This document shows positions 34,573 through 39,857 of a DNA stretch of 64,000 bases, piece by piece. The notes beneath the pieces are model-generated. The model worked only from the letters and a program-made list of their open reading frames with translations, did no database searches and was not told where the DNA came from. The stretch spans positions 1 to 64,000 of the forward strand of contig CAILNT010000056.1 of assembly GCA_903835655.1 (NCBI GenBank), written 5' to 3'. How positions within the stretch are numbered: position 1 is the stretch's first letter; the number at the start of each line of letters is the position of its first letter. The position numbers were made by a program, and so were the translations under genes. Source of the stretch: an uncultured Pseudomonadota bacterium. Its GTDB lineage: Bacteria; Pseudomonadota; Gammaproteobacteria; Burkholderiales; Thiobacillaceae.

Positions 34573-34860
34573 TCAGGCGTAGACATCCAGGGTCATGCCC
34601 GGGCCTGCACTCGGCCCGGAGACGGGTTTTTCGGCCCCGCTTTTTCGAGTGTCCGCCGCCGCGATGCGGTTCTTGATCTCACTGATTTGTTCTTCGAGAT
34701 GCTTGATATTTGCCCGGCCCTCGGGCGTTTTTCCGGAGGGACAGGTTTCCTGGTCGGAAAGCTTGCCCTTGTAGCGGTCGAGTTGGGCTTCGAGTCCCGC
34801 GTTCGTTTTCACGGGGCTCGAATATCCGTAGGACGCGGGGGAACCTATGGCGCCGACCAT
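34573..34860 (-). CDS. Hypothetical protein with short coiled coil, 95 aa
   Basis: No family is recognised. A Ser/Gly-rich N-terminus (MVGAIGSPASYGYSSP) precedes a coiled-coil-like stretch (LEAQLDRYKGKLSDQ... IKHLEEQISEIKNRIAAA) interrupted by ETCPSGKTPEGRA, and the tail is Gly/Pro-rich. It lacks a signal peptide. It lies between the kinase and msrB, in msrB's orientation but upstream of neither. Confidence 0.65.
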   Translation of the reverse strand: MVGAIGSPASYGYSSPVKTNAGLEAQLDRYKGKLSDQETCPSGKTPEGRANIKHLEEQISEIKNRIAAADTRKSGAEKPVSGPSAGPGMTLDVYA

Positions 34861-36900: not shown

Positions 36901-37509
36901 TCAACGGCCGCGTATCATCGCGAGCAGGGTACGCGGCAGCAATGCCACCATCGCCAGGTGGACCGCCAGGAAGCAAAGCAGACCGGTCATGGCGAAGAAG
37001 TGCACGCGCCGCGCCGTCTCGTAGCCGCCCAGCAGTTCGCGCAGCAGGGGGAACTGTACAGATTTCCACAGCACCAGACCCGAGAGCACCAAGAGCGTGG
37101 TATCGAGCATGACGAACAGATAGGCCGTGCGTTGCACGCTGTTGTAGCTGCGCGGGTCGGCGTGGGCCAGGCGCCCGTGCAGGGCGGCGCGCAGGTCGGC
37201 GTACAAAGCGCTTGCGGACAAGGGGAAAAACTTGCGCGTCATGCGACCGCTGCCGGCGTTGAGCAACAGGTAGATCAGGCCATTTCCGGCCAGCAACCAC
37301 ATGGCGGCGAAGTGCCACTGCAAGGCGCCGCCCAGCCAGCCGCCGAGGGTGATGCCGGAGGGGAAGCGAAAGGCGAACAGCGGCGAGGCATCGTAGATGC
37401 GCCAGCCGCTCATCGCCAGTATCCCCGCGGCCAGGGCATTCAGCCAGTGCGTCAGGCGCAGCCAGAGCGGATGGATCGTGTCTTGCGTCCTCGCGGATTG
37501 CAAATGCAT
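36901..37509 (-). CDS. Cytochrome b561-type membrane protein, probable electron donor to the MsrP-like enzyme
   Basis: This 202-aa protein has four membrane helices with histidines suited to two b hemes (RLTHWLNALAAGIL; ALQWHFAAMWLLA; RRVHFFAMTGLLCFLAVHLA). It belongs to the cytochrome b/b6 type rather than the classic MsrQ fold. The ATG at 37509 has AAGGAG nearby. It is first in the sulfoxide-repair run and divergent from the ECF sigma gene across 154 bp. Confidence 0.88.
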   Translation of the reverse strand: MHLQSARTQDTIHPLWLRLTHWLNALAAGILAMSGWRIYDASPLFAFRFPSGITLGGWLGGALQWHFAAMWLLAGNGLIYLLLNAGSGRMTRKFFPLSASALYADLRAALHGRLAHADPRSYNSVQRTAYLFVMLDTTLLVLSGLVLWKSVQFPLLRELLGGYETARRVHFFAMTGLLCFLAVHLAMVALLPRTLLAMIRGR

Positions 37510-37559
37510 GCGGACGTCTCCTTGGGGTGGACGGGGTTTCGCGGGTGTGGTGCAGTTTA

Positions 37560-37588
37560 GTTCGCAGCGCATGCGTACCTGGTTACAA
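37560..37588 (-). promoter_or_regulatory. Putative ECF promoter of the sulfoxide-repair operon
   Basis: On the minus strand TGTAACC (37587-37581) and CGAAC (37564-37560) are separated by 16 bp, 50 bp upstream of the cytochrome b start. This is the GTAAC-type layout of many ECF promoters. The same pattern appears on the plus strand in front of the sigma gene. Confidence 0.55.
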
Positions 37589-37637
37589 GCCCTGGCACAA
37601 TGTGTCACATTTTGCGGGGGCGCAAACCTTGTCGACC

Positions 37638-37665
37638 TGTAACCCAAACCCCTCGGGCAACGAAT
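37638..37665 (+). promoter_or_regulatory. Putative ECF autoregulatory promoter
   Basis: TGTAACC (37638-37644), a 16-bp spacer and CGAAT (37661-37665) repeat the pattern of the opposite-strand promoter. The -10 box overlaps the annotated sigma start at 37664, so either translation begins further downstream or this copy is not the active promoter. Confidence 0.4.
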
Positions 37666-38266
37666 GACGGATCAGGGACGGCTGAATGCCAACGAGGCCA
37701 GGCTCAAGGGCTTGCTGCTGCGTGCTCTCGCTGGCGAAGCCCCCGCTTACCAGGCTTGGCTCAAGGAATTGAGCGCGCATCTGCGTGCTTATTTCAGGAA
37801 GCGCCTGACCCGCTTTCCGGACGAAGTGGAAGATCTCGTGCAGGAATCCTTGCTGGCCATACACAACCAGCGTCACACCTACGACGCCGACTTGCCCTTG
37901 ACGGCCTGGGTGCATGCCATCGCCAAATACAAGCTGGTCGATCTGCTGCGCCGGCGCGCGCGCCGCGATGCGCTTACCGATCCGCTGGAGGACGAAAGCG
38001 ATTTTCTGGTCGCCACGGATAGCGAAGCTGCCGAGGCGAAAAGGGATGTGGGCAAACTCCTCGGCCAACTGCCCGATCGGCAGCGACTGCCTATCGTCCA
38101 CACCAAGCTGGAAGGCCTGTCGGTGGCCGAAGCGGCGCGGCTCACCGGCATGTCGGAGTCGGCGATCAAGGTGGGTGTACACCGCGGCATGAAGGCGCTG
38201 GCGGTGATGATCCTTGAATCCTCAGTTGACCGCTCATTTTCCCCCGTGAGGCCCCATGAACATTGA
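37664..38266 (+). CDS. ECF sigma factor (SigF/NrsF-type), C-terminus altered by an insertion
   Basis: The 200-aa protein has sigma region 2 ([60 protein letters not shown]) and region 4 ([40 protein letters not shown]). The downstream DUF1109 gene marks it as a sigma of the kind paired with NrsF in Azospira, which controls hypochlorite defence. The last 18 or so residues ([17 protein letters not shown]) come from a 243-bp insertion: without it the gene would end AVMIRGAS and overlap the next start codon as ATGA, giving 187 aa. Confidence 0.9.
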
Positions 38267-38452
38267 GGTTTGCGCCTTCGGTCACGCTCACCCTTTGGCT
38301 GAACCCGCTACGCACCCGATTGCACGCCTGGCTGCGTTGCACCCGCAAGGGGTAGGCCGGATTCGTACGCGCTCAAGCGCTACGACTCCGCGCCCTTGCC
38401 AGACAACTCGCCAGACGCACACTCGGGCGTGTTCAACTGAGGATTCAAGGAT
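38210..38452. mobile_element. MITE-like insertion, 243 bp, with 20-bp TIRs and GATG duplication
   Basis: The ends are perfect 20-bp inverted repeats: ATCCTTGAATCCTCAGTTGA at 38210-38229 and its exact complement at 38433-38452. GATG flanks both sides (38206-38209 and 38453-38456), as a 4-bp target duplication would. Removing the element with one GATG restores sigma-gene codons ending in TCA TGA, overlapping the ATG of the anti-sigma gene. No transposase is encoded within it, so it would need a partner element elsewhere. It also explains the 204-bp gap 38267-38470. Confidence 0.85.
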
Positions 38453-38470
38453 GATGATACGAGGTGCTTC

Positions 38471-39112
38471 ATGAAAACCGATGATCTGGTCATGTTGCTG
38501 GCGAATGGGGGGGGCGCGGCGGAAAGACATGCGCTCGCGCGCCGTTATGCGCTGGCCATCGCGCTGGGCCTGGCTACCGCGACCTTGCTGCTGCTTGCTC
38601 TGCTGGGCGTGAGTCACAGCTTTGGGGCGTCGTTACTCTCGCCGATGTTCTGGGTCAAGTTGGGCTATGTCGCGAGCCTGGCCGTGGCCAGCCTGCTGGC
38701 GGTTCTGCGCCTGTCGCGGCCGGGTGCGCGGCTCGACTGGGTGCCAGCGGCGACAGCCGTGCCCGTGTTGCTCATGTGGGCGCTGGCGGTGGCCGTGCTG
38801 CTCGCGGCCGACCCGGTGCAACGCCTGGGATTGCTGCTGGGTGCCACCTGGGCGGTGTGCCCGTTCCTCATCGCCATGTTGTCCGTGCCACTGCTCGTCG
38901 CGAATTTGTGGGCGATGCGCGGCCTGGCCCCGACTCGGCTCACTCTGGCGGGGGCCGCCGCGGGCCTGTTGTCCGGAAGCTGCGGGGCGCTGGTTTACTG
39001 CCTGCACTGTCCGGAACTGGGCGCGCCCTTTCTCGGAGTCTGGTATCTGCTGGGCATGCTGATCCCCACCGCCGCGGGCGCCCTGCTGGGACGATATACG
39101 CTACGCTGGTAG
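38471..39112 (+). CDS. DUF1109 (NrsF-like) anti-sigma factor, 213 aa
   Basis: Six membrane helices (for example YALAIALGLATATLLLLALL, VKLGYVASLAVASLLAVLRL, ATAVPVLLMWALAVAVLLAA) and cysteines in SGSCGALVYCLHCPE match DUF1109, the family of NrsF. NrsF is thought to release its sigma factor when oxidants such as hypochlorite modify it. The short cytoplasmic N-terminus (MKTDDLVMLLANGGG) would bind the sigma factor. The MITE-like element now separates the two genes. Confidence 0.88.
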   Translation: MKTDDLVMLLANGGGAAERHALARRYALAIALGLATATLLLLALLGVSHSFGASLLSPMFWVKLGYVASLAVASLLAVLRLSRPGARLDWVPAATAVPVLLMWALAVAVLLAADPVQRLGLLLGATWAVCPFLIAMLSVPLLVANLWAMRGLAPTRLTLAGAAAGLLSGSCGALVYCLHCPELGAPFLGVWYLLGMLIPTAAGALLGRYTLRW

Positions 39113-39134
39113 TTCGCCCGTCGCGCAGCGCCAC

Positions 39135-39857
39135 TCATCTTGCTTCCAGCAGCAGGCGCTTCATTTCCCGCACCGCGTTTTCCCAGCCCACGAACAGGGC
39201 CTGGGCGACGATGGCGTGGCCGATGTTGAGCTCCTCGATGCCGGGCAGGGCGGCGACCGCCTGGACATTGTGGTAATGCAGGCCGTGGCCGGCGTTCACC
39301 CGCAGGCCCAGGGCATTGCCGGTCTCCACCGCCACGCGGATGCGTTCCAGTTCGTGTGCGGCTGTGTCCTCGGTTACTGCGTCGGCGAAACGGCCCGTGT
39401 GGATTTCCACCACCGGCGCGCCGGCCTCGACCGCGGCTTGCAGCTGCCGGGCATCGGCGTCGATGAACAGCGAAACGCGCACGCCCGCATCCGCCAGCAC
39501 CCGGCAGGCGTGTTTGACCTGTTCGAAATGCGTGGCGACGTCGAGCCCGCCTTCGGTGGTGAGTTCCTGGCGTCGTTCCGGTACCAGGCAGGCGTCGTGC
39601 GGACGAATTTGGCTGGCAATGGCCAGCATCTCGTCGGTGATCGCCATTTCCAGATTCATCCGGGTTTGCAGCAGGCCGCGCAGGATGTGCACGTCGGCGT
39701 CCTGGATGTGGCGGCGGTCTTCGCGCAGATGCAGGGTAATCAGGTCGGCGCCGGCGGCTTCCGCCAGCAAGGCGGCCTGGACCGGGCTGGGATAACGGGT
39801 GCCGCGCTGCTGTCGCAGGGTGGCGATGTGGTCGATGTTGACGCCGAGACGAATCAT
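39135..39857 (-). CDS. pdxJ: Pyridoxine 5'-phosphate synthase PdxJ
   Basis: PdxJ condenses 1-deoxyxylulose-5-phosphate with 3-amino-2-oxopropyl phosphate to make pyridoxine phosphate. The TIM-barrel protein of 240 aa has [20 protein letters not shown] at the N-terminus, [39 protein letters not shown] and [11 protein letters not shown]. It is the last gene of the lepB-to-pdxJ run, 15 bp after recO. Confidence 0.97.

Follow-up and report, generated by a model that had tools for sequence, protein, structure and literature searches.

A non-autonomous transposable element (MITE) is inserted at ATGAT in the last codons of the ECF sigma factor gene sigF, immediately upstream of the anti-sigma gene nrsF. 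Both genes lie in the window (the whole 64,000-nucleotide stretch of DNA that was analyzed), which comes from contig C56 of a draft genome of 3.67 Mb in 132 contigs. The features of the locus are as follows.

37664..38266, plus strand: ECF sigma factor gene (sigF); Pfam Sigma70_r2 and r4_2, NCBIfam PRK12536 above cut-off; last codons replaced by 57 nt into the element
38207..38211: left target copy, ATGAT, assigned by family comparison and the WTNAW rule
38212..38450, plus strand: MITE, 239 bp, defined by its terminal inverted repeats (TIRs) and by family copies; its RNA folds into one long hairpin
38212..38229, plus strand: left TIR, CCTTGAATCCTCAGTTGA
38433..38450, minus strand: right TIR, reading outward TCAACTGAGGATTCAAGG, in which GAGG precedes the target-copy ATG by 8 nt (anti-Shine-Dalgarno duplex −5.9 kcal/mol)
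38451..38455: right target copy, ATGAT, assigned by family comparison
38451..38474, plus strand: putatively translated 7-codon ORF, MMIRGAS*, which the insertion created from the former end of sigma and which terminates in a TGA overlapping the nrsF ATG
38471..39112, plus strand: nrsF anti-sigma gene, intact, with its native Shine-Dalgarno sequence at 38461–38464; Pfam NrsF over residues 10–213

The score of NrsF against the corresponding NCBIfam equivalog is 160 bits, below its cut-off of 300. The protein has cysteines at positions 130, 171, 177 and 180, whose correspondence to Caulobacter C131/C181 was judged by eye. Genes matching msrB, msrA, a molybdopterin oxidoreductase and cytochrome b561 are transcribed divergently from sigF. 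A 95-residue ORF on the minus strand (34573–34860) adjoins msrB and has no Pfam match.

The TIRs of the element are perfect over 18 bp, and no transposase gene lies between them. Taken with the flanking target copies, the inverted arms (38207–38229 and 38433–38455) span 23 nt with 96% complementarity, and form the longer of two inverted repeats in 37900–38700. An initial annotation of this DNA had described a 243-bp segment with perfect 20-bp inverted repeats and a GATG duplication. The inverted repeats are confirmed, but the element was redrawn as 239 bp with 18-bp TIRs and ATGAT on both sides, because comparison of family copies assigns the outer bases to the target: the conserved family TIR, CCTTGAWTCCTCAGTTGA, is 18 bp long and adjoins WTNAW. 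The target duplication of this copy is identical over all five bases, and its target lies 20 nt before nrsF, off the stop/start overlap.

The predicted RNA hairpin of the element has a folding energy of −114.5 kcal/mol (z −7.7 relative to shuffled sequences). An Rfam scan of 37600–39200 yielded no match at E values up to 1, and a promoter consensus scan of 37500–38520 found none. One terminator-like site was detected in the latter region, within sigF, where shuffled sequences give 0.9. A coding role for the element was judged unlikely by eye, the indels in the alignment not being multiples of three.

The sigF-nrsF junction before and after insertion

Virtual removal of the element restores the sigma reading frame and its ATGA overlap with nrsF, as initially annotated, and does so under either a 4-bp or a 5-bp duplication. 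The sigma protein then ends in ...KALAVMIRGAS* (4 bp) or ...KALAVMMIRGAS* (5 bp); the latter version has one extra Met codon, and there is a GATGATGAT run at that spot. The closest relative sigma tail (locus L077) reads ...KALAALIRGAS*, with the TCATGAAAACCGAT that the window also shows after removal.

Junctions were read in 46 relative loci, 44 from named genomes and two from the genus (L071 and L151 probably stem from a single genome). The 4-nt ATGA stop/start overlap, which the removal had implied for the ancestral junction, is present in 42 of the 46 (40 by script; L094 and L109 by re-reading). Among the remaining four, L070 and L087 have a 1-nt overlap, L107 an 11-nt overlap and L152 a 9-nt gap. 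None of the 46 junctions carries a TIR pair, allowing up to two mismatches per end, and the site is thus empty in these relatives. The gene pair is patchy within the genus, with nrsF detectable in only 3 of 23 genomes, and L151 is the only close in-genus empty site. Relatives of nrsF in named genomes are mostly from Betaproteobacteria, with some from sulphur Gammaproteobacteria.

The sigma stop codon is now 204 nt upstream of nrsF. Sigma is not expected to lose its activity, because region 4 extends only to residue 179 of 200, before the altered tail, and because sigma tails vary among relatives. The native GAGG of nrsF remains intact, and the right target copy opens the short MMIRGAS* frame, whose TGA overlaps the nrsF ATG just as the sigma stop formerly did. 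The earlier proposal of an altered sigma C-terminus and broken coupling therefore holds in part: direct stop/start coupling has been lost, but nrsF has not simply been orphaned. Sigma takes on a new tail, and nrsF would be served by its own Shine-Dalgarno sequence and by a 7-codon leader ending on its ATGA. Production of sigma and NrsF is expected to be less tightly linked as a result, with NrsF not abolished.

The element family and its likely origin

The genome of origin contains 91 TIRs (20-mer, up to 2 mismatches), compared to none for a reversed-pattern control, and 73 pieces matching a 251-bp query. The inverted ends are not a product of chance. Other copies of the ends, one of two things for which the initial annotation proposed to search, are thus abundant, while the other, a matching transposase, was not found. 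Together with the empty sites in relatives, this abundance goes against both outcomes that the annotation had named as refuting its reading. Several contigs of the draft genome end within a copy. Family matches occur in 22 of 23 genomes of the genus (including that of the window) and in 34 of all 61 genomes searched.

Copies sit in WTNAW and duplicate TNA. Within the genome of the window, 17 of 28 element pairs agree at all five bases of the target duplication. A larger set of 120 element pairs from 20 genomes was assembled by keeping only pairs with identical TNA on both sides, which dropped 32 pairs with unequal core; 1 duplicate and 4 pairs whose flanks fell short of 300 nt were also dropped. 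All five bases are equal in 93 of the 120, with the first base differing in 14 and the fifth in 14, a pattern that arises partly by construction. Before the TNA filter too, mismatches fall mostly at the first and fifth bases, as if 3 bp were strict. The target core is TGA or TCA in 96 pairs, and TTA or TAA in 24.

Copies reach 404 bp (L063 and others), with length varying by internal modules that are present once or twice. One such module (query 126–186) is more than 90% identical in several other species. Solo TIRs (L036, L039, L062 and others) are seen at the 3' ends of genes, with the stop codon of the gene apparently in or near the TIR. They look like decayed copies, perhaps retained for supplying a stop codon, and were left uncounted.

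The ends of the element suggest a likely origin from an IS1380-type system. Elements around PF13701 transposases in related genomes have the ends CCCTGAATCCGCAAGTT (L135), CCTGAATCCGTGG (L156) and CCTGAYTCCGTGACC (L165), and MITE end variants follow CCTNGAWWCC. The L165 element has duplicated 5 bp, TGAAA; IS1380 elements make target duplications of 4–5 bp. The MITE may thus have been moved by an IS1380-type transposase that is absent from the assembly. Searches of the genome of the window, the examined genus loci, phages, plasmids and IMG/VR revealed no complete element in which exactly these ends enclose a transposase. The phage search gave no match to the element, and IMG/VR gave none to the exact TIR plus target; plasmids gave one weak partial match (72%, Polaromonas CP087967). 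When the element was compared by BLAST with PF13701 loci of the genus, the only match with a low E-value was at L137. The IS1380 fragment beside a TIR at that locus was rejected as an autonomous element, as the TIR is part of a short remnant and the intervening sequence looks unrelated. The element is filed as an IS1380-like MITE, and not as a member of the IS1380 family, because it contains no PF13701 gene and because the PF13701 copy in its own genome has different ends.

Copies at gene starts and stops

Positions of insertion were analyzed after removal of each element and one target copy by script, with gene prediction by a scorer of codon usage that had been trained on the window. The resulting counts refer to loci chosen by similarity to the window element or by an exact TIR, not at random, and copies within a genome share ancestry. 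Insertion fell exactly at a predicted start for 33 of 120 elements, compared to 57 of 1,792 motif controls, at a predicted stop for 38 (controls, 24), and at both for 21 (controls, 8). Only 20 elements lie inside genes, versus 1,488 controls. Avoidance of gene interiors explains much of this placement. An excess at gene edges remains when only sites outside genes or on their edges are considered (50/100 elements versus 73/304 controls, p=2.6e-6), as does, among edge sites, an excess at stop/start overlaps (21/50 versus 8/73, p=1.6e-4).

In the genome of the window (30 elements), the target copy contains a predicted start in 9 cases, compared to 7 of 347 motif sites in the flanks and 20 of 411 in the window. 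The equivalent counts are 7/30 for stops (3/347 flanks, 14/411 window) and 5/30 for start and stop together (0/347 flanks, 4/411 window). Restricted to non-interior sites, 13 of 26 elements are on edges, versus 11/52 flank sites (p=0.018) and 31/98 window sites (p=0.11). For other species of the genus (60 rows, with L193 counted twice), starts account for 20/60 versus 22/818 and stops for 22/60 versus 16/818; the conditional edge test on these rows gives 29/52 versus 32/144 (p=1.8e-5).

One example lies outside the window on the same contig (79037–79326, L012), where a copy sits exactly on the ATGA overlap of hflK and hflC. This junction has no insert in 22 other genomes of the genus, where the two genes are in contact (19 ATGA and 3 TAATG overlaps), including a sister genome (G008) whose HflC is 97% identical. 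Ten proteins encoded downstream of copies in the genome of the window were scanned against family profiles. HflC, MlaE, NtrB and a YfcE-type phosphodiesterase score above family cut-offs. Matches below cut-offs, for which names are approximate, are leucyl-aminopeptidase-like, QseC-like histidine kinase (at a TTGA overlap), TolC-like and oligopeptide-permease-like; two of the ten gave no family match. For mlaE and the permease-like gene, the target copy is one codon within the predicted start. At L034 (1554–2999), a copy is found on a stop/start overlap, upstream of a large gene resembling by eye an SMC-type ATPase, with no NCBIfam match at 1e-10.

Most TIRs read outward as TCAACTGAGGAWTCAAGG followed by the target copy, which places GAGG 8 nt before an ATG or TTG. 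GAGG ends form anti-Shine-Dalgarno duplexes of −5.9 to −6.3 kcal/mol, near the value that delimits the strongest quarter of 67 genes of the window (−5.95). Other TIR variants in the genus have ACGGC, ACAGC or ACCGC in place of GAGG, with duplexes of −2.6 kcal/mol or weaker. Of 35 insertions at starts (exact or off by one codon), 27 have a TIR whose strength equals or exceeds that of the native sequence that it displaced; the end serving the gene is left-type in 14, right-type in 12 and unclear in 9. Start insertions are more frequent for elements with GAGG (31/82) than for those without (2/38, p=1.3e-4), and were likewise in a smaller set (28/71 versus 1/34), while stop-only insertions show no such difference (9/82 versus 8/38, p=0.16). 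One of the two exceptions that start a gene without GAGG, L233, carries GAAGG. Permutation within genomes gives p=0.053 for the GAGG effect, or 0.017 with a wider Shine-Dalgarno definition that was set after seeing L233. Since the effect vanishes when ATG target copies alone are compared (25/44 versus 2/6), differing target preferences of the TIR variants could explain part of it.

These patterns raise the possibility that the TIR acts as a portable ribosome-binding site, with TGAGG and an 8-nt spacer followed by a target copy beginning [A/T]TGA. For copies at ATGA overlaps, duplication of the target would preserve both the upstream stop and the downstream start, so that the genes are parted undamaged. 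In the folded mRNA of the sigF copy, the GAGG of the right TIR is predicted to be fully paired, a point against this role. Keeping the left TIR single-stranded in the prediction frees the last two G (probabilities 0.93 and 0.99), with the first G and the A still mostly paired (0.14 and 0.25). Speculatively, the TIRs may pair in the mRNA and bury the right-hand GAGG, and a ribosome translating sigma through the left TIR could then partly expose it, preserving some coupling.

Interpretation and relation to known systems

Considering the locus as a whole, the explanation that we find somewhat probable is a MITE with IS1380-like ends in sigF, whose TIR is a candidate portable ribosome-binding site. 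It is possible, if not probable, that this is instead an ordinary MITE with a WTNAW target, where the motif simply occurs in start and stop codons (ATGA, TTGA) and insertion there is tolerated, interior insertions are lost, and GAGG is a coincidence of the sequence bound by the transposase. The strong avoidance of gene interiors is as such an element would show, as are the non-significant conditional test against window sites and a GAGG effect that is weak within genomes and absent among ATG copies. However, the edge excess over all data and the enrichment of stop/start overlaps even among edge sites argue against it, and insertions at start codons are common only with GAGG ends, even though they move the native Shine-Dalgarno sequence away. 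A more elaborate version of the favored reading is tentative and, taken whole, rather unlikely: an operon-adapted family that settles in stop/start overlaps and duplicates them harmlessly, with a ribosome-binding site in both ends and an mRNA hairpin whose base joins stop and start, opened by the upstream ribosome so that coupling survives.

The family assignment may also be mistaken, although we doubt that the likeness to IS1380 ends is coincidental and the element belongs with another insertion-sequence family. Such an assignment would fit the failure to find an exact partner beyond one weak partial plasmid match, and the apparently strict 3-bp duplication compared to the longer one of IS1380, but the resemblance of the L135, L156 and L165 ends to the MITE end variants speaks for the IS1380 connection. 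As for the consequence at this locus, the initial annotation held that coupling was simply broken, so that NrsF is under-made and the regulon partly on. The distance now separating the sigma stop from nrsF is in its favor, as are findings in other bacteria: in Caulobacter, sigma F is kept in check by NrsF, and attempts to delete nrsF did not succeed where sigF was functional (PMC3511200), and in Azospira, deletion of nrsF raised resistance to reactive chlorine (PMC5748585). Nevertheless, an intact nrsF with its own Shine-Dalgarno sequence and a leader ORF ending on its ATGA makes this outcome unlikely. We retain the reading in which the TIR is a candidate ribosome-binding site and the production of NrsF continues.

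Gene disruption and the supply of promoters are known effects of MITEs. If the favored reading is correct, a MITE that makes good the ribosome-binding site lost on its insertion would illustrate how selfish DNA can settle in operons at little harm, and how the balance between paired genes, such as sigma and anti-sigma, HflK and HflC, or response regulator and kinase, could shift in a single step. In the open-licence PMC literature, we found no report of an element inserting at stop/start overlaps or providing a ribosome-binding site. Natural copies that have GAGG and others that lack it coexist in the same genomes, which makes the idea of a portable ribosome-binding site directly testable.

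The element resembles MITEAba12 in being short and non-coding, with TIRs like those of an insertion sequence, a target duplication, many copies and effects on neighboring genes (PMC6382973). For MITEAba12, duplications of 9 bp, disruption of genes and outward-facing promoters are described, whereas the present element duplicates TNA within WTNAW, has no promoter by consensus scan and has GAGG in its ends, spaced from the target ATG like a Shine-Dalgarno sequence. Compared to IS1380-family elements (PF13701), it shares ends that begin CC(T)nGA(A)TCC, as in L135, L156 and L165, one of which has a 5-bp duplication. It differs from them in lacking a transposase gene and in having GAGG where the insertion-sequence ends have GCGG or ACGG, and its exact partner was not found among the sequences searched. 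The host locus is similar to the sigma F/NrsF systems of Caulobacter and Azospira, where, in the parts of those studies consulted, an ECF sigma factor gene is followed by that of the membrane anti-sigma factor NrsF, with genes of methionine sulfoxide reductase type nearby (PMC3511200, PMC5748585). Here, however, a MITE parts sigma from nrsF, and msrB, msrA and the molybdopterin oxidoreductase and cytochrome b561 genes run divergently. The pneumococcal BOX and RUP repeats are likewise small and interspersed, and contribute ORFs to transcripts; BOX-derived ORFs are without good Shine-Dalgarno candidates, and the sections consulted describe no placement at start codons (PMC3049150). The new findings on the present family are that its copies lie in WTNAW and duplicate TNA, and that they cluster at start and stop codons as predicted by the scorer.
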